NCBI RefSeq assembly: GCF_021134715.1
Contig: NC_060027.1
Span: 2,542,001-2,606,000, forward strand
DNA from: Daphnia pulex
Taxonomy: Eukaryota > Arthropoda > Branchiopoda > Diplostraca > Daphniidae
Direction of reading: 5' to 3'
DNA length: 64,000 nucleotides
Shown: one piece after another, positions 16,825 to 39,901 of the stretch
Layout of the letters: every line of letters begins with the position of its first letter
Numbering within the stretch: position 1 is the stretch's first letter
Program-made: the position numbers and the translations under genes
Notes under the pieces: model-generated
What the model saw: only the letters and a program-made list of their open reading frames with translations
The model's database searches: none
Told to the model about the DNA's origin: nothing

Positions 16825-18065
16825 TTAATCGGACGTGATTCGCTCCTTTTTGATTTTCTTGGCCGCGGGATCTTCAATGCCGACTGCTGGTGGGTCCGCG
16901 TTCGGTTCCTTTTTGATTTTTTTGGTCGCTGGATCCTCAGATGACTCAATGCCGACTGCTGGTGGCGCTGGATCAGCGTCCGGCTCCAGTTTAATTCGCT
17001 TTTCTTCGGGTTCGCTGGAAACGGTTTCGGCTGCTGCGGCAGCGGTGGCGGCTGGTGCCGGATGTTTGGTGCCGCCAGCATCGTTGAGTGACGTCTGAAA
17101 TTCGGCACTCATGTCCATTTTGATGATCTCTCTAAGGGCCATGGTGGCGTACGACGAAGCGGGCAGGCTGAATTCCAACACCAGTCCGAGGTAAGCGCCA
17201 TCTATTACCATTTGAAAAATAAATATTTACAATAAAAGGGGGTCAAAAAGTCGCATAATGGCACAAAGTTTCACATTTCAGATTTCATGTTTCACGAGTG
17301 ACACGGAAGCCAACACTATTACCGGCGCACAAAGGCCGGAAGGAGGAAGAAATCCCAGCCCGTGTTCCGTCATCGATTGGATACCAAGATCCCCAACCCA
17401 CCACCCCGTCCCGTTTCAAAGACAACACGAGAGAAAGGCGAGTAGTGTAGGAGAAGGAACAGCCAGCCGGGCTCCTAGTTCCTAGCTCCGTGTTCTTTGC
17501 AACGTCAATAATGGGCGCAAGTGATGTGTGTGACGTCTTCTCGACGGGAAAATGAAGCATTTTGGCACTACACTAATGAAGCGCGGGCCAAGGACCAAGG
17601 AGGAGTCAAAAGGGCAAAAGTGAATGGGATTTGCTAGAATGAATGTCGACAATCTACTCTTACTCTCCTACTCTCCTCTATCCCCCCTCCCTCCTGTTCC
17701 TACTCGGCTCTTTACTCGAATTCCCCCATCGTTGGCGAGTCAACTTTCCATCTATCGCGACATTCATAACGGACAAACTTCTCTTGTCGTCCATTCCAAT
17801 ATCCGACCGGCACCAGCCCGTCAACAATCGTGCGCGCAGACAGACAGACACATAATATAGCGAACCCCCACACGACAAACCTCCTCCCCAAAACTCCTAG
17901 CTCTCTCTCTCTCTCTGCTTCCTCATTGGCTGCAGACGTTGATTTCCTCTCCTTTCGCTCCGACAGCCAACGCCGACACTCACAAAGGGCGACGGCGGTA
18001 ACAACAACAAGAGTGAGGCAGTACAACACACAAACGGCCATTCATAATGCCTCGGCGCAATCATC

Positions 18066-18096
<31 letters not shown>

Positions 18097-21000
18097 ATTC
18101 TTCTACTGCTGCTGCTTTTCTAGCCGCCACGAGTCTCAGAAAAATAACCCGGTCCGGTTGGCTAAAGAAAAAACAACCTAACCAAATAAAAACAGCGCCA
18201 AAAAGTATTGATTTCTTTTTTTTCTTTTCCCTCCTTGTCGGGAGTGTCAAAATAGGCGAATACAAAAATGAAAATAAATTGTCCTCCGAATAAAAAATAT
18301 TTAGAAAAAAATATGGCGGGCAAAAGAGATGGAAAAGTTGTCCACCCATCGCGCAAGAACCAACATAAATATTGTGCCGAAAATGTAAGAGCCACTTTGA
18401 ATAGGGGAAAAGGGGGCGAGTTGAACAGAGTGGCGATCAATGCATTGGCTCCCTTATCTAGCTCAGCCTACCATCTACTACTTCTTCCATTCTTTATGAC
18501 TTTTTCTTTTTCTTTAACTACCGTCGCTTCTTTTCCTTTCTTTTTTTTACATATTTAAATTGTGGTGATGCAGAGAGAAAAAAAAAGGAAAAATAATTCA
18601 ACATGATGAACGTTTGGGGTCGTCTTCTCACTTTAAAGAAAGAAAAAGAAAGTCGGGTCGGAGGACTGTGTGTGGTTAAGCTGGGAAGCACCCAGAAACC
18701 TCCGAAACAAGATCACCGACCCAGTGGAAATCAATTCAACCACCACTACCGAGGCAACCAAAAAATATAAAAAGAAAAGGAGGACAAGGAAATTTTCATA
18801 GTCTTCTATCTTTCCGCGAGAGAAAGTATAGCGAGAGAGAGAGAAAAGAGGGACGGATATAATAATAAAAATGGGATTATTTAACCTCGTACAGACGCTT
18901 CAAGCGAAAGGAAATAAAGTGCAACCATAGGAGATGGAGAGAGCGACAAGAAGGGGAGGGAAAAACTAATAAACAAGTGGAGCTCGGTCGATCCATCAGC
19001 TCGAGATGAAAAACTAACTTAAACCCCGCAAGAAAAAGAAGAAAAAAGACAAGTCTTTCGCCCTAAGAATTAAATCCCAAAAGATTTTCCTCCTCAAGTT
19101 TCGATAACACCAGATAGGCGAGCGGGAGAAATGTCCCGATCCTTAAACTCATTTCTTTTCCTCATGTTTTCCTGCCTTCAAGGAATGAGGAGGAAGAAAG
19201 TAAAAAGCAAAGAAATTTTTGCTTTCCAGATGGATGGGAAACGTTCCACCGTAGCAAGTAAAACACAAGAGAAAAGGAAATGGCATAGCAACAAAAAAAA
19301 ACCCTGCCATTGAGCCAAGGGGATGATACCTTTCACGGCGGCGGCGGCGGGAGGCTGGGTCTTTTCCAGTCGATCCCAGTCAGATGGGATCAGGCTCAGA
19401 GTAGGATCATCGTAACGTACGAATTTCCATTTCACATCGGACGGCTTTGACATCACGAGTCGATACGCTCCACCGAGATTGTAGGTTCTGTCAAGAATGC
19501 GAGGAAGGGGAGAATATAAAAAAGATTTAAGTTTGATATAAAAGGGGGAAATAAAATAGAAAACATATATACTTTGTGCTTTGTTTGAAATCCATCTCAG
19601 TCAAGCCATCCGCTTGAAGGAGCTCTGTATACCATCCGGCAACTTCGTTGGAGGGATACGTTATGTCAAAGCCAGGAAGTGGAAGAATAATGTCGTTGAT
19701 CGTGTAGTCGTTTATGTTGTTCTCGTCAATGAACATGACTTTGCGCTGATTGCGCTGCGCTTTTGCGTTGGACTTTTCACCATCCGCTTCCTTCTCGCTG
19801 GATTGATCATTTGCAGGTTCCAGAGCACTGGATTCCTCGTTCATCAGTTCCATTTCCGCGTCGACTTCAGGATCGCAAGTGCCTGGAACGTAGACCAAAT
19901 CGCCAACAATCGGTTTCGGACCGAACTTTGAAAGACGCTTGGAAACGACAGTGTTCCAGAGGAAACTCTGATAGGCGTGAATGTAAGTAAGTCGCAAGTT
20001 GCGAGGAATCTTAAAAATCAAATAAAAATATTAATGAAACAAATGGTAGAAGATTTTAGTTAACGTCAAGGGGAACGTACGGAGTTCAGGGCGCCGACGA
20101 GATCTTTGCCAAATTTCTTCAAATGTAATAAAAGTTGAGCTTCGATTGTTTGAAGGCTCCTTTTGATTTTCGAAAAGGCTTTATGAGCGTCCCTTGTGGA
20201 TTTGTACTCGATACGCGCTTGTGTGAGGTCGAAATCGCGTTGAAATCTGCCGTTCAACTCGGGTGGCTCCAAAATTAAATCAATGGCCTGTAAAACATTT
20301 GAAATGAATACGAAGATCTGAAAAGCACCTTATAAAATTGAATTACTTTTTGCCACCGCCCTAAAATCAGCTGTTTTCCAATGAAATGCGTTGGAACATG
20401 TCGAGTTCCAAAGCGTTGGGACCCGTAATAGTTGATGAAACCTACTTCTTTCAGCGACTCGAGGTTTGCCAAAATTTGACTCTCGTCGCCAATTACATTT
20501 CTAAGTGCTATTATGAAACGATTACCCTGTAATAAATTATGATGATTATTAGATGAAAACAAAATGGATTCGGATGAGCGGTACCTTCAGATTTCCCAAT
20601 TGAAGAGGTTGTTTGGTGAAGGAAAAATTCCCAACAGCAATCTTAGGGTTATTCCGTACACTGTTCAAAATCTTAAGAGGTTCTGTATTTTTCAACGTCA
20701 CTAACTGACTCGTAATTGCTCTTTTATCTTTCGTTCCAGCAGTCATTAAGTTTCCGGCTTTCGTCCTAAAATAAAAGTAAGAATTGATTTTTTTTCGGTG
20801 AAAATGTATGAAGGATGGTAAATATTTACTTAAGCGCTCGAGCGATTGTGTTGACTGCTTCCATTGTGCTCAGATTTTCTTTATACAACACGAATTGAGT
20901 ATAAATGCAGCCCATGCGCCGCTTTTCGTTACGACGTCTTTCTTGTTTTCCTTCCATCTTGAAAATTTTCATAATTGTTCTGCCATCAACAGGTCCTGAG

Positions 21001-21641
21001 TTGCTGGTAATATTTTCCTCTTCATACTTTGTCCTCACAGTTTTATGGATATTTTGTCTTTCCTCCTTACTCTTTTCTGTTACGTCAATTTCAACAGTTT
21101 TTGGATCCCCTGTTTTAACCATTGCTTCAATACTATTCCATTGGTCTGCTGTCAAAACATCAGAATCTTCCGCCGTTTCAGTGTCATTAGATTCAACATA
21201 CTTAACAATAGTCTGATCTGTTAAATGAATAATGTTGCCAGCCATGTCAATTTCATGTACCTTTACGTTGAAAAAAAAAATGGATTAATATTGTTAATAA
21301 TGCTATGGTATTTTTACTCATTTCACCTGAAAATCAGAGTAACGTTGTTTGAGGATAGCTGAAAAGCCTTGTCCTTTACAAACATATTCGGAGATGCCAA
21401 CATCAATTTCCTTCCTTTCAGTCTTTACATATTCTCGTTCCCCACCATAATTGTGTTTTTCAGGGGTAGCTTTTGGGCTAGCAGGAGGAGTTGGTTTCTG
21501 CTTTGACGGGGCCTTCATTCGCAATTCCTGTTCTTGTTGTTTCTTCAAGTTATATTTGGCCATGGCCTCTAGGACATTTACTTTCTTTTTCATCGTCTGG
21601 CCCTTCGCTTCACTAACACTTTCGCAGTCATTGTCTTCCAT
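16825..21641 (-). CDS. PUS7: PUS7-type pseudouridine synthase, copy 1 (conserved catalytic copy)
   Basis: Eight exons: 21641-21327, 21260-20830, 20765-20585, 20526-20347, 20287-20081, 20009-19573, 19487-19330, 17201-16825. All intron phases agree (0,2,0,0,0,2,1), giving 761 residues. The family turns uridine into pseudouridine in tRNA and mRNA. Motifs in order: ILKQRYSDFQVHEI (TruD motif I with its basic residue), GTKDKRAITSQ (motif II with the catalytic Asp), GNRFIIALRNV, INYYGSQRFGT, IHAYQSFLWNTVVSKR, GDLVYVP, IILPLPGFDITYP, GAYRLV and the closing strand YLGLVLEFSLP with YATMALREI. The ATG at 21641 matches the start in copies 2 and 3. Residues after about 685 are a tail with three near-repeats, each with a basic IKxE core (RIKLEPDADP, KIKKEPNADP, KIKKERITSD). 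It is the only copy with every TruD motif intact, so it is probably the housekeeping enzyme. Intron 7 is unusually long (2.1 kb). Confidence 0.9.
17202..19329. other. 2.1 kb intron 7 of PUS7 copy 1
   Basis: Donor AAAG/GTATCA and acceptor GGTAATAG/ATGG bound this intron. It contains a CA run (about 18068-18092), GA runs and A-rich DNA, and no exon-like segment. It is in the same position as the intron that carries the NET cassette in copy 5, but no NET-like reading was found here. Confidence 0.7.
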
Positions 21642-22525: not shown

Positions 22526-25500
22526 TCAATCCTCTTGATCGGAAATGATATCGATATATATGATACTCTTAAACTTTGAGCCATTGCAGGACTGAGTGAT
22601 TAACACTTCTTCTTCTTCTTGATCCGGATCTAACTTGATTTTCTTTTTCTCAGGTTCCTCACAAGACTTGGTGAATGCTGATGAATGCATTTGACAAATG
22701 CCGGACTCGACCTTAACATTAGTTTGGGGTTCCTTCAAGCATTCGTTTACTATGGATTGAGACTTTTGACAAGTGCGGGGCTGTAGAACAACTAGATTTT
22801 TCTGTAGCTCTAAAACAAAATCTGTTGCTATTGGTGCAGATTGTTTGCTGGTCCCCGGTTCTTCCTTTAATAGAGGTTTCTCAAATGGCTCTCTGGTTTC
22901 TGGTGTCTGATTTTCAATCGTGGCCGGCGTTCCTTTTAGTTCGAACTCCCGAGACTCGCTGGTGGATTCTTGATGTTGATTCTTACGTTGCTCCACCAAT
23001 TGTTTACTGGCGACTGGTTTTTCGGCGATTCTGTTTGTTTGGAGAGGTTCCTCGAATGACTCATTGTCAATTGACGGTTGTTTTTCCACAGTGCCCGATT
23101 CGGGCTTGATTTCTCTGAGCATTTTTCCCTTGGATAATGGGCTGGCTGCTGATTCTAGACGGTTTTGATTTATGTCTAAGAAAGACTTGCTTGATTCTGA
23201 TAGAGGTGGATCGGTCATGCACGACTTTTCCTTGGTTTCCTTAATCTGGTCTTCGACGGCTTCTTTGGTTTCTAATGGAGATGGGCGCTTCTGTTTAGGG
23301 CACACCTTGTTCAAACGAACTTGTTTTTTCAATTTGGTTTTCTTGCAACGGAATCCCTTGGATGATTTCCGTAATTCGGCTGTCATGTCCATCTTGAGGA
23401 TCTCTCTCAGAGCCATAGTCCCCCAAGCGAAGGCCGGCAAACTGAATTCGAGTACAAGTCCAAGATATACGCCTTCTAAAATAGCAAAGACAAATAACAT
23501 ACTGATAGACAGCGAACAAGAATGTTGTAGTTGAACTGTAGAAGAGTTCAAAATATTTCATAAATTTCACACAAACAATTTGATTCCACTTCTATTTTTG
23601 AACCAGCAGCAAACGAGCACGTCAGCAACAGTAATTTCTGGACATAATTTCCCTATCTATTTATCTACCTACCTAACTTTCATTATAAAAAAAAAGTTTA
23701 ATAATAATATTTTGATATTTAGAGTCCTGAAAATGTTTTTTATGCGAAACATTACAGTAAATAAACAGGAACAAAGCATAGCGATTTATAGAAACAGAGA
23801 AAATTGAAAAATACCTTGCGAGCTGACAGATGGGAGCTCTATTTGGTGTAGTCGATCCAAATCAGACGGAATCAACTTCTGGCCAGGATTATCGTAATGC
23901 ACGAATTTCCATTCCAAATTAGAAGGCCTCAACACCACGGGTCGATAAGCTCCATTTTTAATACCATAAGTCCTACAATCATACACATAATTAACACATA
24001 ACTGAGAAAAGCGGAGTGGTAAAAATCCATGTTTGATTCGAGGAAAAATTAAATACTTTAAACCCGAATTGAAATCCTTTTCCAACAGTCCATCTGCCAA
24101 TAAATGGTCTTTATACCAGTCGGCAACTTCGTTGGCCGGATAAGTAATATTAGAACCAGGAAGCGGCAGAACAACGTCGTAGATGGTGTACTTATTAATG
24201 TTATTTTTGTCGATGAAAATGACTTCTCGTTGATTGTGCTGTCTCTTATTATTATCACGTCCGCCACTGTCGACTTCCATTTCAACCAATAGTTTGATGT
24301 CAAGGTCTATGTTATGGTAATATTTTGTTCATTATTACCTGGAGCATAAACTAGATCACCCACAATCAGTTTTGCACCAAATTTTGCAATGCGCTTGGAG
24401 ACGATAGTGTTCCAGAGAAAACACTGATAGGCGCGAACAAAAGAAAGTCGCAAACAAAAAGGGATCTATAGACAAAAAGAAAATGTTTTAATACTGGAAG
24501 ACAGCGTTTAAAAATTGGCGTCAATGTTTTCAATACATACAGCATTTACTGCTTTATCGAGATTTTCGCCATGGATTTGAATATTAGACAAAAGTTGGGC
24601 TTTTATTGAATTCTTTAGTGTATCCTCATCAAAAGTTAGATCGACAACTCTGGAGAATTTATACTCAATACAAGCCAATGTAATATTCTTAAACCGATTA
24701 TCTCTGATCTTCAACTCGGGATGAGGCTGTAAAAATAAATCAACAGCCTAATAAAAAGGCAAAAAATGTTGAAATATCTACATAATTTGACAATGATTAA
24801 TAATATGAATTACTTCTTGCCATTTCTGTAGTAGAAGCTGCTTTCCGATTAAATGTTTTGGGGCATCTCTTATTAATCCAAAGTGCAGGTTTTCATAATA
24901 ATTTACGAACCCATTATCTTTAAGCGATCTGAGATTCGCCTCAATATGACCCTTATCACCAATTATTTTCCGTAGAGCGATGCTAAAATGATTGCCCTAC
25001 ATAAATTATGAGTAAGTTTTAAGGTAACATTGGTTACGAAGGAATTAAACTGACCTTCAGATCACCCCGCTGAAGGGGTTTAGGGGCGAAGCTGAAATTT
25101 CCAATCGAAATATTTTTGAGGGATTCTGTGAGACAAAGACCAATACAATCCTCCATTTTCATTGTCACTAGTTGACAGTTTGATTTTGATCTTCCAATGT
25201 TGTGTTCAGCAGTCATAAAGCAGTCTGAGCTTTTTCTGTAATTTACGACCAGGAAAGGAATAATGAAAGAAAAAATAAGTCAGGATTTCGATAAAAATAC
25301 CTGAGACTTGTTGCGATATTGTCGATTGCTGTCTTTGTGCTTATCTTTTCTGCGTACATAGTGAATTGAACATAATCAAGTGATCCATCTTGGCGGCGAA
25401 TCTCATCTTGCATATTGCAAATCTTCAAGATTAGTTGTTTACCAACATACACAGGCTCATGGACATGAAACTTCTCTTTCAGAATTTTCTGGAGATTGTC

Positions 25501-26241
25501 TCTCTGATTTTCACTTATATCTGTAATATCAATTTCAGTAGTTTTAATCTCTTCATCATCATCTGTTTTTAACATTATGTCATCAATGCTGTTTAATTGC
25601 TCAGGTGTTATGACAAACTCTCCCTTACAAGGAAAAGGTTTGATAAGAGGATTGTTCATTTTTGTTAAATGAACAACTGATCCATCTAAACTGATTTCAT
25701 GTACCTATAAAAAGGACAAAATTTTAGTGCTGAACTAAATTTTCCTAACAATTTACAACATTCATACCTGGAAATCAGAGCAAGAGTGATTTATATCAGC
25801 AGAAAAGCCTCGTCCTTGAGAAATATATTCAGTGATGCCAATTTCAAAATCATTTTCCAAGTGTAGTTTGTTTTCACTTTTTGCTGCATTTTTCAGATGT
25901 TTCATTAGTAGTCTATTTCTTTTGTTTTCGTACTGCTTTACATTTATTGCTGTAAATTGTGACTTCCTTGTCACTAAGGGTTTGACAAACGATTGCTTCT
26001 CTAAACTAAGCTTCTTTCCTTTTCTTCCTTTAGATGTTTCATTTGATACTTCACCCTTCACTGACAATGCCGGGGAATCATTTAATATTACGTTTCCCTT
26101 CGACGGACCGGCTTTCGTTTCCATGGTATGCTGTTGCTGTTCTTGTTGCTTCAATTTGTATTTAGTAAGGGCCTCAAGGATATTTTCCTTCTTTGGCGAT
26201 TCGTTTGATACAAAGACGATTTCACACTCCTGTTCTTCCAT
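22526..26241 (-). CDS. PUS7-like paralog, copy 2 (catalytic Asp lost)
   Basis: Exons: 26241-25768, 25704-25301, 25235-25055, 24996-24814, 24747-24541, 24465-24339, 24306-24057, 23972-23815, 23475-22526. This gives 977 residues if a 32 nt segment (24338-24307) is spliced out. Read through, it gives an in-frame TAG at 24309-24307. The TruD fold is recognisable: SDFQVHEI, VRAYQCFLWNTIVSKRIAK, VVLPLPGSNITYP, GAYRPVVLRPS, YLGLVLEFSLP. Motif II, GTKDKRAITSQ in copy 1, is here EHNIGRSKSNCQ with no Asp. Motif I has lost its basic residue (DINHSCSDF), and QRFG has become LHFG. The last exon is long and encodes about 270 charged, low-complexity residues ending IIYIDIISDQED. The protein is probably inactive as a synthase. 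A recent pseudogene is the main alternative, but the rest of the frame is clean. Confidence 0.75.
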
Positions 26242-27696
26242 TTTGTCAGACTAGATGATTAAAACAGTTTTAGTATATTTCTTCATCTCCACGTGCCCAC
26301 GACCCGAGTGGAGCACTTGGCCGAGTTTAACAAACTACAACAACAAATCAACAATTGAAATTTAGCAGACAACTAAACACAATGTTGTCAAATCGCTTGA
26401 ATTCGCTCCCGTCATCAGGAAGGCGCTCCGCGGACCGCGGCCCGCGCTACTCCTGCAGACGTGTAGTCCTGTTTGCTGTTCCTGCCTTCTCTCCTCTCCC
26501 CTCTTTTTTTTTTTTTTTTTTTTTTTTAACTTTTTAGTAACTGTTTAAGATAGCATATCAATACAGTAAGTTACAGATACAGTAGGTCGACACAGGTATG
26601 TAACAATCGGTACGTGAGACCAACTAGACTAGCCGAGACAACTGGTTGTATTTTTTTAAAGGGTTCTGATCTTTATTAAAGATGTCCTTTATGGCATCAG
26701 GGCGCCTTATACAATTTACCACACTTAAATCTTTAAATGTGTTCTCATTACCTGACTTGCGCTGGAACCACCTTTCCCTTCCCTTCTCCCCTGCAGAAAA
26801 AAAATGGGGGACGGGACTTCAGCATCCGAATTCCATACCGGAACTCGTGCGAACAAGATGTTCTGGGTTGGATTTTACACAAAACTGTAAAATAAAAATA
26901 GTTTCCATAGTTCTACTATTTACTAGAAGCCTAATTTTTAAAAATAAAAAAAAAAAACGCTCAAAACTAGTGAGAAAAATCATACTTAAAATCATACTTT
27001 TATCTACATAAAATAACGAAAACTTATCCGAGAATAGATTCTAAAAAATTTGAAACGAGCTCGTGAGTCATGCAGGTGAGTTCTCAGGGACCAATTAAAA
27101 CTCGTCTTCTGTAGCCATTGTTGCCTAGTAGTAGTAGGTCGTCGTTAACACCCATTAACCTCGCATCGCATGAAATCCGGTTCCGGTGTTCCGGACTACC
27201 TGTAATAGCACCTTTAAAATGTATACCGGTAATAAATGTATTAAGGGATTCTTGGTCTAATGACAATATATTTAACTTCAATTAGTTCTGAATTATCGCA
27301 TAGGATATCAGTCATATCACAGCGTTAAACGAGGATTTAGGAATATTAACTTGGTTGGAGCAGACAAAAGATGGGTTGGCCCACAAAATTCGATAAATTC
27401 GAATGTTCACTGTCACAAATCTTCAAACGGAAAAAAATTATGGCAATCATGTTTCATACGGGTTGTGTTCAACACTTTCCGTTGAATAAGGCACCTTATT
27501 AAAAAGACGAAAAATTTCCATTTAAATGCTGCTGGGTAGTTTTCCATCGGCGCATTTTACTCCAATTGCCAACTACCTTAAATTCAACTTCAGCAGAAAC
27601 AAAAAACAAATAAAATAACTTGGGCAAAAACTGTAAGAAAAAATTATTTTTCAAGTCTTTTCAAGTTCGTCAAACAGAAGACCTAGACGAGTGCAA
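26242..27696. repeat. spacer between copies 2 and 3, with duplicated segments
   Basis: No gene is seen. The right end of copy 3's 3' side (about 27000-27600) matches 21815-22400. The left part (about 26540-26900) matches 31720-32090, with shared blocks AATAGTAAGTTACAG-like and GACTTCAGCATCCGAATTCC. A T run of about 24 lies near 26503-26526. These are the spacer parts of a tandem duplication unit of about 5 kb. Confidence 0.65.
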
Positions 27697-30600
27697 TCAG
27701 TCCTCTTGTTCGGAAATGAGATCGACATACATGATACTCTTAAACTTTGTGCTTTTCGAAGACGGAATGATTAACACTTCTTCTTCTTCTTGATCTGTGT
27801 CCGGATCTAACTTGGTTTTCTTTTTCTCAGGTTCCTCACAAGATTCGGCGAATGTTGATGAATGCGTTTGAAAAATGCCGGGCTCGACCTTAACATTAGT
27901 TTGGGGTTCCTTCAAGCTTTTGTTTACTTTAGATTGAGGCTTTTGACAAGTGCTGGGCTCTTGAACAATTCGATTTTTCTTAAGCTGTTTTAGTTTAGGT
28001 TTCTTAAATGGCTCCCCGGTTGTTGGTGGCGGATCATCAAGTGTTGCCGGCTCCAGCGTGATTCCTTTAAGTTGCGACTCCCGAGACTCAGTGGTTGATG
28101 GTGAACGATCTTGATTCTTACGTTGCTTAACCGAATGTTTATTGGCGACTTGTTTTTCGGTGATTCTTTTTGTTCGGAGAGGTTCCTCGAATGACTCATT
28201 GTCCCTTGACGGTTGTTTTTCGATAGTGCTCGATTTCAGCTTCATTTCTCTGAGCGTGTGACCATTTGATAATGGGCTGGCTGCTGATTCCGCACGGTTT
28301 CTATGTGTGTCTAATAAAGACTTGCTAGTTTCTGATTGAGGTTGATCGGCGATGCACGGCTTTTCTTTTCTTTTCTTCTTCTGTGGTTCCTCGAGCGCTT
28401 TGTTTGTTGCTAATGGCGACGGATGCTCCTGCCTAGGGCACACCTTGTTCAAACGAACTTGTTTTTTCAACTTGGTTTTCTTGCTATGGAATCCCTTGCA
28501 TGATTTCCGTAATTCGGCTGTCATGTCCATCTTGAGGATCTCTCTCAGAGCCATAGTCCCCCAAGCGAAGGCCGGCAAACTGAATTCGAGCACAAGTCCA
28601 AGATATACGCCTTCTAAAATAGCAAATAAAAATAACATACTGATTGACAGTGAACAAACATGTTGTAGTTGAAGAGTTCCAATATTTCATAAATTTCACA
28701 CAAATAATTTTATTCCACTCCTATTGTTGAACCCACAGCAAACCAGCAAATCAGCAACAGTAATTTCTGGACTGAATTTCCCTACCCATCTATCTACCCA
28801 CCTACCTTCCATTCTTAATCTTAAAGTAATAATATATTTTGGTATTTAGTGTCCTCAAAACGTTTGTGAAGGTACACATTACGTTAAATAAACATAAAGA
28901 AAGCATAGGGACATGAAGCTATAGACAGAGAAACATAAAAAATACCTTGTGAACTGACAGACGGGAGCTCTACTTGTTGTAGTCGATCCAAATCAGACGG
29001 AATCAACTTCTGGTCAGGATTATCGTAATGCACGAATTTCCATTTTAAATCAGAAGGCCTCAACACCACGGGTCGATAAGCTCCATTAATACCATAAGTA
29101 CTATAATCATAAACATAATCCAAAATAAAATATAACTGGGAGGGAAAGTAGGAGTGGCAAAAATACCAAAACTGTATGATCAAAGAATGAATTACTTTAA
29201 ACTCAAATTGAAATCCTTCTCCAACAGTCCATCTGCCGATAAAAGGTCTTTATACCAGTCGGCAACTTCGTTGGCCGGATAAGTAATATTACAACCAGGA
29301 AGCGGTAGAACAGCGTCGTAGATGGTGTAATTGTGAATGTTGTTTTGGTCGATGAAAAGTACTTCTCGTTGATTTTGCTGTCCATTATAATCACGTCTGC
29401 CACTGTCACCTTCCATTTCAATCAATAGTTCGATGTAAAACTCTATATAGCGGATGTATAATGAGATTGTATTATTCTGGTCATTATTACCTGAAGCATA
29501 GACTAGATCACCCACAATCAGTTTTGCACCAAATTTTGCAATGCGCTTGGAGACGATAGTGTTCCAGAGAAAACACTGATAGGCGCGAACAAAAGAAACT
29601 CGCAATTCAAGAGAGATCTATATGAAAAAAAAAAATATATTTTAATATTGAAAGATGGCGTTTAAAAAATTGGCGTAAATGTTTTCAAAATACATACGTC
29701 ATTTACTGCTACAGCGAGATTTTCGCCATGGATTTGAATACTTGACAAAAGTTTGGCTTTGAATGAGTTATTTATATGATGAGTCTCATCAAAGGTTTTA
29801 TGGACAAGCCTTGAGAATTTATACTCAATACAAGCCAATGTAAGGTTGCTTAAATAGTCACCTGTGCTATTTAACTCGGAAGGCTGTAAAATTAAATCAA
29901 TAGCCTAACAAAAAGGCAAGAAATGTTGAATCTACACAACTTGACGATAATTTAAAAATTGAATTACTTCTTGCCATTGTTTTAGTAGTAGCTGCTTTCC
30001 GATTAAATGCTTGGGAACGTCTCTTATAAATCCAAAGTGATTGTTATCATAATAATTTATGAAACCATTATCTTTTAGAGATCTTAAACTCGCCTCAATT
30101 TGACCCTTATTACCAATTACTTTCCGTAGTGCGATGTTAAAATGATTGCCCTACATAAATAATGAGCAAGGTTTAAGGACAGATTCGGTTAGCGACGGAA
30201 TTAAACTGACCTTCAGATCGCCCAGCTGAAGGGGTTGAGGGACGAAACTGAAATTTCCAATTCCAATTGAAGTATGTGAAGCGAGACAAAGACCAATAGA
30301 ATCCTCACTTTTCATCGTCACCAGTTGACTTATTGATCTTGCAAATTTGTTTTCAGCAGTCATGAAGCATTTAGAGCTTTTCCTTTAATTATTTCCGATC
30401 AACAACGGTACAAACGAAAGAAAAATGAAGTTAAGATCACGTTAAAAATACCTGAGTGTTTCGGCCATATTTCTGATTGCTGTCTTTGTGCTTATCTTTT
30501 CGGCGTACAAAACGAATTGAATATAATCAAATAATCCATTTTGGGGATGTCTCTCATCATGCATTTTACAAATCTTCAAGATTAGTTTTCCACAAACAGA

Positions 30601-31439
30601 TACAGGTTCATGGACATAATAATTTTCATTCTCTTTCAGAATTTTCCTAAGGTTGATTCTGTCAATTTCTTCCATTTCAGTTATGTCAATTTCAATAGTT
30701 TTTATCTCCTCATTCGACTTCAACATAATGGCATCAATGTTATTTAATAGGTCATATGTTATGACAAATTTCCCATCACAAGTATTAGGTTTGAAAAGAG
30801 GATTTTTCATCTTTGTTAAATAAACAACTGATCCATCTAAACTGATTTCATGAACCTATAAAAATCATAAAATTTTAGTGCTTTTGGCGAAAAATTTTTT
30901 CAACATTCATACGAACCATACAAAAATTATTAATGCAATACCTGGAAATCAAGATAAGACTGATCTACATCAGCTGAAAAGCCTTTTCCTTGAGAAATAT
31001 ATTCAGTGATGCCAATTTCAAAATCATTTTTCATGTATGTTTTGTTTTCACTCTTTGCTAAATGTTGCACATATTCCAGTTGTAGTCTATTTCTTTCATT
31101 TTCATCATACTGCCATGGTAAAGGATTATACTGCTCTTTATTAACTTCTGTGATTTGGGACTTCCCTAAGGATTTGGCAGATGATTGCTTCTTCAAACTA
31201 ATCTCCTGTCCTTTCTCTTCTTCAGATGTTTCTTTTGATACTTTAGACTTCACTGGCAATGGTCGGGAATCATTTATTGTTTCGTTCTCCTTTGACGAAC
31301 CGGCTTTCATTTTTATGGCATCATGCTGTTGCTGTTCTTGTTGCTTCAATTTGTATTTAGCCAGGGCCTCAAGGATATTTTCTTTCTTCTTTTGCGATTT
31401 GTTTGATACAAAGACGATTTCACACTCCTGTTCTTCCAT
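27697..31439 (-). CDS. PUS7-like paralog, copy 3 (catalytic Asp lost)
   Basis: Exons: 31439-30942, 30855-30452, 30382-30211, 30150-29968, 29904-29698, 29617-29196, 29100-28946, 28613-27697. Phases match copy 1 throughout and give 985 residues. It is the closest relative of copy 2, with the same exon layout and the same long charged tail. Motif I reads DVDQSYLDF (basic residue lost), motif II reads ENKFARSISQ (Asp lost), and NYYG-QRFG has become NYYDNNHFG. Structural motifs (VRAYQCFLWNTIVSKR, AVLPLPGCNITYP, YLGLVLEFSLP) are kept. The tail has EKKKTKLDPD, NVKVEPG and ends IMYVDLISEQED. Exon 6 contains a 48 nt GT...AG segment (29508 region down to about 29461) that is in frame whether spliced or not, at the same place as the 32 nt segment of copy 2. 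It is probably a non-catalytic nuclear protein. Confidence 0.78.
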
Positions 31440-36506: not shown

Positions 36507-39500
36507 TCAACTTAAATCGCACAGCTTCATCAATCGCTTTCCCCGGGTTGTCATCGATGCTTCGCTTGATGATGTGATCTCGCTGGCGTCGACAGTTTCG
36601 TGAATTCTAGGCTTTTTCTTCCGGGATCCCTCCGAGTCTGAGGACTTCAACGTTGCTTGTGAAGAATGTTGGATGGGATCGTTTTGTTTCCCCAACACTG
36701 CACTGTTGTCTACCTTCATGATTTCTCTAACGACCATGGAGGCGTAAGATGACGGCGGTAGGTTGAATTCGAGAATAAGACCGAGATAATTAATATCATC
36801 ACCTGAATAGAAAACTGGTTAGTCCTAGTAAAAATGTAGTAGTATCGCACAGGGGAAGTGTACTTCAGTGTGGAAAGAAAAAACATACTGAATTATACTT
36901 CGCGGAATATGGAAGACTGCGAATATTTGCCAGAGCTTTATTAAGAATGATTAATTAAGATTGAGAAAATAAGAAGCTTACCCGTTTCCAAATCCGTGAG
37001 AGCTGAAGCATTAGAACTCAATCCAATGCCGGAACCAACTTGACTAACAAGGCATTCAGCGTCTTTGACATTTTCTGCAACACGTTAACACACAATTTAC
37101 AATTATACGATTTACAATTGCAACACCTTAAGAAATTAAATGCATTCGTTTGTAAGTACTCTTGGTAGGATGAAATGTTTTACCTTTGCGATGAACCTTC
37201 TTGGGTGTAAAATTTTCCTTTAGCTCCAATGTCTCTTCCATCTTTATATCCGATTGGTTTTTTCCTGTAAAGCCCAGAAAAATTACGATTACACATTCCC
37301 ATAAAATAATAATATAAACGATATAACGCACCGTATGTTTTAAGAGGCTTCGGGCTTAGACAAGATTCCACGTATGTTTCAAGTGATCGGAGAGTCAGCG
37401 GTTGAAGAGCTTCAAAATCTAGTACAACTTCATCAGGATCCCAACCAGCTAACTTTGGCTCAAGTGAACGCAAAATATGGACTACTCGTCCAAGCTTTTT
37501 ACCTATCAATCAAAATGTTACTTGTGATAAATAAATACAATAAGAGACGAACAACGACAACAAAGGAAAAATATACAGACCTGGAAGCAATCTGATGTTA
37601 GAACTCAATTGTTTTTTTTCGTCGTACGACATTGGTTTGGCGTCGCTATCGTCTTCCGAATCACCTGAAGGAGAAAGAACGGGTTTCTTCTTAACTGGCT
37701 CTGGTGACTCCAAGGTTTTTGGCATTGGGGAATTCTTTAGTTTTAGTTGACCACTCCTAGTAATCCTCTACAAAATCACGTGAAATGTAATAAGACATAC
37801 ACAAATTTGAAGGTGTTGATCTATTACCTTTTCCTGGTCCGTTTGCACCTCTGCGGAATTATTGTGATTCAGCAATGTGCAGTATGCAACAATATAATGG
37901 TCACCACAAATAAAACAACAGCAATTATAAGGACAATATTAAGAAAAGTTAATTAACGTCTATCTATATCTGTGCCTTTCATCACATTCTTAAACTCTTA
38001 TCCTATGACACTCGGAATTCGATGAAATATTCCTTCATCACGCGCTATATTTAAACAGAAACAAAAATAGCGACCCATTTGGCTAGAGTGATAGTACCTG
38101 TCACTGCCGTGTGTAGGAACTGAGTCTTTTCCAGTCGATCCAAATCAGATAATATAAGCCTCTCCGTTGGATTAGTGTACCATAAAAATCTCCAGTTGAA
38201 ATCGGAAGGCTTCAAAATCAGGTGACGGTACGCTCCAGAAAGGCTATGATTTCTGAAACAGGAAGATAACTCTTACAAAAAGATTTGGGCAAGTACTCGT
38301 AATTCAATACTTGGCGCTTCTTTCGAAATCCACCTCCGACAGCCCATCCGCTAGTAGAAGATCTTTATACCAATCGGCAACCTCGTTGTTAGGATAAGTT
38401 ACATCGTAACCCGGAAGCGGTAACACAACATCGGCTATTGTGTAGTTCGGGATGTTGTTTCTGTCGATGGACACGATTGTTGGATTACTGCATTCCGATT
38501 GGTTACTGGAATTGCTTTCATCATTGCCCATTTCTTGAAGTTCGTCAACGCTTCGAGCATAAACTAAATCGCCTAGAATCGGCTTTACACCAAATTCTGC
38601 AATACGCTTAGAAACGATACTGTTCCAGATGAAACTTTGATAGGCATGAATATAAGAAAGCCGCATTTCAAAGGGGATCTGATTATAGAACACAATACAT
38701 ATTAAATATATAAAACGTTTAAAATGTAGATAAACGTACAGTATTCAAAGCGCCAACGAGATCTCCACCATGATTCTTCATGTAAGATAAGAGCTGGGTT
38801 TCCATTGAGTGCAAGTGCTCATGCCCCTTGAATACCTCTGCAATCAAATCGATAGCCTGCAAGAAACAGCGAAATGAGAACGAGTTGGTAGTAGAAGGCA
38901 TTTATCTCTTACTTCTTTCCACTGGTTTAATAATAGTTGTTTTCCAATTAAGTGAGTCCTTGTTCCAAAACATTCAGTTCCATAATAATTTATAAAACCG
39001 TATTCTTTCAGTGACTTGAGATTCGAATCGATTTGAATCTTATCACCGTTAACATTCCTCAATGCAATGACGAAACGATTACCCTTGACATCGAAAGAGT
39101 GTTCCAAAAATTAAAGTTATTGTATGTATGTGTGTGAAGAAAAACATTTGTTACCTTCAGACTTCCTTGTTGGACTGGTTTGTCGGTAAAGGTAAAATTT
39201 CCGAAAGCTAACTTGGACTTGGACTTGGATTTCAAATCGCATTTCATTTTCGTTGGATCTAAATTCTTATTAGCAGTTACGAGCTGACTAGTGATTGTTC
39301 CTTTTTCATGTGTTGAACAGGCAGTCATGAATTCCGGTGAATGTATCCTAATTTAAACAGAAAAACATCACGTAATAACGCGTAAGAAAACAACAAGTAG
39401 AATAAGCACGGAAATCGCCATATCGTTATCGTTATCATACTTATTTTTCTTGGCGATTTTGGCAAGTACAAAATTTGCATCAACTGTTTCTTGATTTTCC

Positions 39501-39901
39501 ATGTACAATACAAATTCAGTGTATGAAGATACATGTGGCACTGCATTATCTTGGGACTTTCTTCTCACTGAAAATCTTTCTTTTTTCTGTTCAGGGTTCA
39601 GCTGACTGAGATCTGTTAAATGGACAATCTTCCCATCCATGCTAATTTCATGAACCTAGTATATTAAACATTGAAAGATAACAATTAATATTTTAGTACA
39701 AAAATAGCAGCTGCCTACCTGGAAATCTGAATTACATTGCTTCAAATGAGCTGAAAACTGTTTTCCTTTTTTGGCGTATTCTTGTATACCAACTTGAGCT
39801 TCCGTCACTGGGCCTAGTACATTTTCATGATGGATTGTCTGATGGTTTTCTTTCTTTGTAGAAGCAGCTAAAGCCTTTTTATGTTTGTTTCGTTTTGCCA
39901 T
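36507..39901 (-). CDS. PUS7-like paralog, copy 5, with an inserted BET-type NET domain (TruD-NET chimera)
   Basis: Thirteen exons: 39901-39719, 39655-39441, 39347-39155, 39083-38913, 38856-38740, 38678-38311, 38252-38098, 37850-37828, 37767-37581, 37502-37332, 37264-37184, 37074-36982, 36802-36507. Phases agree at every junction, giving 750 residues and no internal stop. Exons 1-7 and 13 are Tru[14 protein letters not shown], then [11 protein letters not shown] where the catalytic Asp is Glu, [42 protein letters not shown], and in the last exon [18 protein letters not shown]. Exons 8-12 (residues about 468-652) carry a NET domain at about 520-594: [47 protein letters not shown], followed by a Lys-rich linker. 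In BET proteins NET recruits chromatin regulators. No bromodomain is present. Exon 5 is about 30 codons shorter than in other copies. A separate nested NET gene is possible but fits the phases less well. Confidence 0.8.
37332..37767 (-). other. NET (extra-terminal) domain exons 9 and 10 of copy 5
   Basis: These two exons encode the whole NET fold. Helix 1 comes from [12 protein letters not shown], the [13 protein letters not shown] turn and helix 2 span the exon junction, and the acidic strand and helix 3 are [12 protein letters not shown] and [12 protein letters not shown]. In BET proteins the strand reads DEIEIDFE from memory. Here one of the two glutamates used to hold partner lysines is replaced by Val, so partner binding may differ. 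The preceding linker ([21 protein letters not shown]) resembles the Ser-Glu-Asp-rich run before NET in BET proteins. Confidence 0.85.

Follow-up and report, generated by a model that had tools for sequence, protein, structure and literature searches.

An fs(1)h-type ET-domain exon cassette in the reading frame of a PUS7-like gene

The PUS7/TruD cluster and the exon structure of copy 5

Five tandem PUS7/TruD genes, all of which were modelled and are numbered here as copies 1 to 5, lie on a single strand at 16825-39901 of the window, which is the whole 64,000-nt stretch of DNA that was analyzed. At least nine TruD matches were found in the genome, and all of those reported fall within this cluster. 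The preliminary description had claimed that copy 5 contains a five-exon cassette that enters and leaves in phase 1 within an open frame of 750 codons. This exon chain is present in the DNA exactly, as 13 exons on the minus strand separated by 12 introns, all of them GT-AG, with 750 codons and a stop. The features discussed below are as follows.

16825..21641, minus strand: copy 1, a PUS7 gene with intact catalytic motifs and, as in copy 5, a phase-1 intron ahead of its last exon; no ET match
39719..39901, minus strand: copy 5 exon 1, with the ATG at 39901
39441..39655, minus strand: copy 5 exon 2
39155..39347, minus strand: copy 5 exon 3, the TruD catalytic loop, reading STHEKG against human GTKDKR
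38913..39083, minus strand: copy 5 exon 4, with ECFG and a gap in place of QRFG
38740..38856, minus strand: copy 5 exon 5
38311..38678, minus strand: copy 5 exon 6
38098..38252, minus strand: copy 5 TruD exon 7, leaving in phase 1
37828..37850, minus strand: cassette mini-exon 8 (23 nt), entering in phase 1 and leaving in phase 0, with a weak acceptor
37581..37767, minus strand: cassette exon 9, a lysine-rich linker and the start of the ET domain
37332..37502, minus strand: cassette exon 10, the remainder of the ET domain
37184..37264, minus strand: cassette exon 11, a shortened homologue of the fsh exon with the KKVHRK end
36982..37074, minus strand: cassette exon 12, a shorter homologue of the serine-rich exon of fsh (which we take to be of SEED type), leaving in phase 1
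36937..36942, minus strand: AATAAA in intron 12, which may serve as an intronic poly(A) signal (chance expectation 0.17 per 179 nt)
36507..36802, minus strand: copy 5 last exon, with the last TruD strand, the tail and the stop (36507-36509)

The five cassette exons (37850-36982) sit within the phase-1 intron ahead of the last TruD exon, and exon 7 ends in the same phase in which the cassette enters and leaves. Leaving the cassette out keeps the frame and gives 565 aa and a stop; including it adds a 185-residue insert, bearing an ET domain, ahead of the last TruD strand. The corresponding phase-1 intron is far longer in copy 1 (2128 nt, 17202-19329) than in copies 2-4 (339, 332 and 170 nt).

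Copies 2 and 3 (23200-31439) are the youngest pair in the cluster, with 73% amino acid identity and a dS of 0.26. Their pairwise omega of 0.635 is high, the other nine pairs ranging from 0.18 to 0.36 (all omega values are from a custom pairwise codon model), which suggests relaxed or diversifying evolution. Exon 6 of copy 2 (24057-24465) contains a stop and a frame change unless a 65-nt intron at 24274-24338 is spliced out, and the exon was treated as split by this possible intron in the motif and omega comparisons; copy 3, its close relative, is open across the same region.

Domain content and active site of the predicted protein

Pfam scans covered four of the five copies (1, 3, 4 and 5). 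In the 750-aa copy 5 protein they matched TruD (PF01142, 2e-46) and BET (PF17035, 2e-20, residues 520-583, 73.1 bits, cut-off 24.5), and a third match, DUF1400 (0.073), was under its cut-off. The union of a NET (ET) domain with a TruD protein proposed in the preliminary description is thus borne out at the profile level, with both families over their Pfam cut-offs in one reading. Solved structures matched by the protein include human PUS7 (5kkp, 1e-73) and yeast Pus7 (7mzv, 7.7e-60) as well as the ET domains of BRD2, BRD3 and BRD4, the best of these at 1.3e-27. The alignment with 5kkp puts the cassette between positions 510 and 521 of the human chain, ahead of the last matched stretch, at a site that may form a surface loop in the PUS7 fold. 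The Pfam scan found no bromodomain in the copy 5 protein, and none of the 39 bromodomain matches listed for the genome is inside the window; a protein of this composition, having no bromodomain, would not itself read acetylated chromatin.

Copy 5 has a Glu aligned to the catalytic Asp (human D294, assuming a chain offset of 98 for the register of the 5kkp alignment), and QRFG, which we take to be an active-site motif of TruD enzymes, reads ECFG and then a gap. Copy 1 retains TKDKR and QRFG and is likely a working PUS7, copies 2 and 3 are without the catalytic Asp, and copy 4 retains DRR without QRFG. Because both active-site motifs are found in copy 1 only, the other four look like paralogues that have diverged or become pseudoenzymes. 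A D294N form of PUS7 has been termed catalytically inactive (PMC12575831), and copy 5 is probably no active pseudouridine synthase; with Glu for Asp and a broken QRFG, RNA binding without catalysis is the likelier activity. A link from RNA modification to chromatin through the cassette is accordingly not supported. Compared with copy 1, the TruD part of copy 5 gave an omega of 0.25 and a dS of 1.86, and over 33 residues the last TruD exons of the two copies share 66.7% identity; this low omega and the identity of the last exon suggest that transcripts probably reach the last exon of copy 5.

Since the bromodomain is absent and the catalytic motifs are changed, copy 5 fits neither the BET nor the PUS7 class. 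It is like the PUS7/TruD synthases (5kkp, 7mzv) in matching the TruD profile over most of the protein and in retaining the last strand and helix, but differs from them by the Glu for Asp substitution, the ECFG and gap, and the ET-bearing 185-residue insert. Likewise the cassette shares its ET domain with the BET proteins (fs(1)h; BRD2, BRD3, BRD4) and its intron positions with the fsh gene of this genome, but the copy 5 protein has no bromodomain, carries the ET domain inside a TruD protein, and has the pocket changes N623R and E653V. There is a precedent for BET parts being split among proteins in Drosophila, where tBRD-1 is without an ET domain and tBRD-2 has one (PMC4345279). Unlike copy 5, tBRD-2 keeps a bromodomain, and no RNA enzyme is named in the available text of that report (PMC4345279).

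An fs(1)h-type donor gene in the same genome

The Pfam BET profile was searched against one genome (133 Mb, 13 contigs, window included), and three places matched: one on contig C1, the copy 5 cassette, and a weak one on contig C12. The weak match (L003:1501-1656, 28.9 bits) resembles, when translated, what we take to be the C-terminal domain of an AF9/ENL-type protein. The ET match on C1 scored 62.8 bits (3.3e-15) and is preceded on the same strand by two bromodomain matches (C1:8225043-8225225 and 8223799-8224065), an arrangement that identifies the C1 gene as a BET gene of fs(1)h type, called fsh here.

Cassette exons 9-12 pair with four adjoining fsh exons, and the intron positions and phases are identical. 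The exon lengths are 187/199, 171/171, 81/120 and 93/156 nt (cassette/fsh), and every one of the differences (12, 0, 39 and 63 nt) is a multiple of three. Alignments scored relative to single-base shuffles, and computed with three of the four fsh exon starts set one base too late, gave z-scores of 13.1, 13.8, 7.2 and 5.0 for the exons, whereas the four introns reached 2.1, 2.8, 1.1 and 1.8, weak at best. Beyond the exon 12 equivalent, fsh reaches a stop just past the donor (GGT TAG) where the cassette reads GGT AAG instead. Mini-exon 8 did not match the end of the preceding fsh exon significantly (z 0.9), and its donor begins GTAATA, as does the donor of that fsh exon. No convincing similarity was found for the outer introns of the cassette: against the fsh flanks, copy 5 introns 7 and 12 had z-scores of 2.3 and 0.0, and the best p against the same intron in copies 1-4 was 0.023 among eight unadjusted comparisons.

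A misassembly or a recent haplotype copy was ruled out, because 25 of 70 ET residues differ from fsh and the introns align weakly at best. Two features of an exon-shuffled chimera were found, namely flanking introns of the same phase and a donor with common intron positions. The proposal in the preliminary description that an ET (NET) module was placed by exon shuffling just ahead of the last TruD strand is therefore supported, and the source of the module can be named as the fsh gene of the same genome.

Transcript readings, constraint and predicted role

Scored with a local matrix, the splice sites at the two ends of the cassette do poorly. The acceptor of mini-exon 8 is weak, scoring -2.2 and ranking at the 54th percentile among the strand's AGs, and the donor of exon 12, GTAAGC, has a low score of 1.8 that places it at the 80th percentile of the strand's GTs. 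A phase-0 donor that lies in frame at 38105 and scores 1.7 offers an alternative entry, as it could join exon 9 and omit exon 8, and three more phase-0 donors lie beyond exon 7 where the frame is still open (scores -5.2 to -9.1). The only two other AGs of the right phase in intron 7 were rejected as cassette entries, as stops lie in the way. At the other end, the AATAAA at 36942 begins 40 nt beyond the last base of exon 12, following a 12-codon read-through. This arrangement leaves room for a possible shorter TruD-ET isoform or a nested ET-only gene, although with the hexamer expected 0.17 times per 179 nt its occurrence in intron 12 may be chance.

The nested gene, which we consider unlikely, would start in intron 7 or exon 9 on the same strand, end in intron 12 and produce a free ET protein, while TruD transcripts skip the cassette. 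An in-frame Met within exon 9, the weak exon 8 acceptor, the preservation of the frame upon skipping, and a read-through of the exon 12 donor that yields 12 residues and a stop beside the AATAAA are consistent with such a gene. Arguing against it are the chance expectation for the hexamer, the loss in the cassette of the stop that fsh has past this donor, and entry and exit phases that suit the host intron. Also unlikely is a transcript in which exon 7 is spliced to the cassette and the intron-12 poly(A) signal sets the 3' end, so that a TruD-ET protein without the last strand would be made alongside a full TruD isoform produced by skipping. The open read-through into the AATAAA and the symmetric phase 1 would allow both products, but the exon 12 donor keeps its GT and its phase and outscores 80 percent of GTs.

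Constraint on the cassette was assessed by comparison with fsh. The two share 45 of 70 ET residues, and with BRD2 and BRD3 as outgroups 22 ET changes can be assigned to the cassette lineage and none to that of fsh, which indicates that the cassette evolves faster than its parent. Over 76 ET codons an omega of 0.5, the rough expectation for a freely drifting cassette alongside a constrained fsh, was rejected (2dlnL 19.3), and the free fit gave an omega of 0.008 with dS saturated at 29.6. For the whole cassette (172 aligned codons) omega was 0.23 and dS 1.83, with 2dlnL of 10.1 against omega 0.5 and 38.9 against omega 1. In neutral simulations started from the cassette sequence, with 2000 runs at each distance, the probability that 177 codons contain no stop was 0.011 at 0.2 and 0.0015 at 0.39 substitutions per site, and 0/2000 runs were stop-free at 0.6 substitutions per site. 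These tests are rough, as they use a single genome and synonymous sites near saturation, and they support a cassette that appears to be held under constraint and not to be drifting freely. The cassette is unlikely to be a neutral remnant, spliced rarely or never, of a partial copy of fsh in the intron: its faster evolution than fsh and the weak exon 8 acceptor fit that history, but exons 9-12 are without a stop or a frame-breaking length change, the splice dinucleotides of all four internal introns are intact, omega values of 0.5 and 1 are both rejected, and simulated neutral sequences rarely stay stop-free.

It seems probable, on balance, that a segment of fsh was copied into the intron of a PUS7-like gene, yielding an in-frame, 750-aa RNA-binding pseudoenzyme that carries a predicted ET adaptor. 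Under this explanation a segment of the fs(1)h-type gene, comprising the ET-domain exons and the next two with their introns, would have been copied into the phase-1 intron of a tandem PUS7-like paralogue, kept its internal splice sites, and been spliced in frame in vivo, placing the ET domain just ahead of the last TruD strand. The resulting protein, if it folds as predicted, would most likely be an RNA-binding pseudoenzyme because its TruD active site is broken, and it may recruit ET-binding partners to the RNAs that the PUS7 fold recognizes or, alternatively, may be a competitor of fs(1)h for the same partners. One possible partner is the tail of copy 1 (16828-17201), which contains KRIKLEP and two KKIKKE stretches; we take these to be similar to the basic-hydrophobic peptides to which ET domains bind.

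Published work identifies the ET residues in contact with JMJD6 or NSD3 peptides and reports weaker binding for E651A/E653A (PMC5701133). At the 14 client-contact positions taken from that source the cassette is unchanged from fsh at nine, with three conservative changes (I637L, I652V, I654L) and two strong ones (N623R, E653V). Non-contact positions were kept at 36/56, and by comparison with this 9/14 does not point to special conservation of the client pocket. N623R and E653V would alter the pocket, and the groove may possibly accept somewhat different partners. JMJD6 removes methylation from the 7SK cap, and both it and BRD4 work together with P-TEFb (PMC5701133); 7SK is also modified by PUS7, whose loss releases P-TEFb (PMC12575831). 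These connections suggest that a TruD-ET protein might tie ET partners to 7SK-type RNAs. A more specific proposal, which we regard as rather improbable, is that a maintained TruD-ET chimera has converted a dead synthase into an RNA-guided adaptor for chromatin and elongation factors, acting on 7SK-type RNAs to tune pause release, with optional skipping of the cassette.

Exon shuffling into an intron of the same phase is a known kind of event, and what seems not to have been described before is the pairing of TruD with an ET domain. No TruD-ET fusion was present among the literature matches listed, in the text available for them, and no relatives were found in the viral_contigs and genome_contigs collections, neither of which is intended for crustaceans. 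The locus offers a case of exon shuffling in an animal in which the donor gene, the host intron and the host gene are all visible in one genome. Proteins of this kind would test whether an ET domain can serve as a portable adaptor when separated from bromodomains, and whether RNA binding survives the loss of catalysis in TruD pseudoenzymes.
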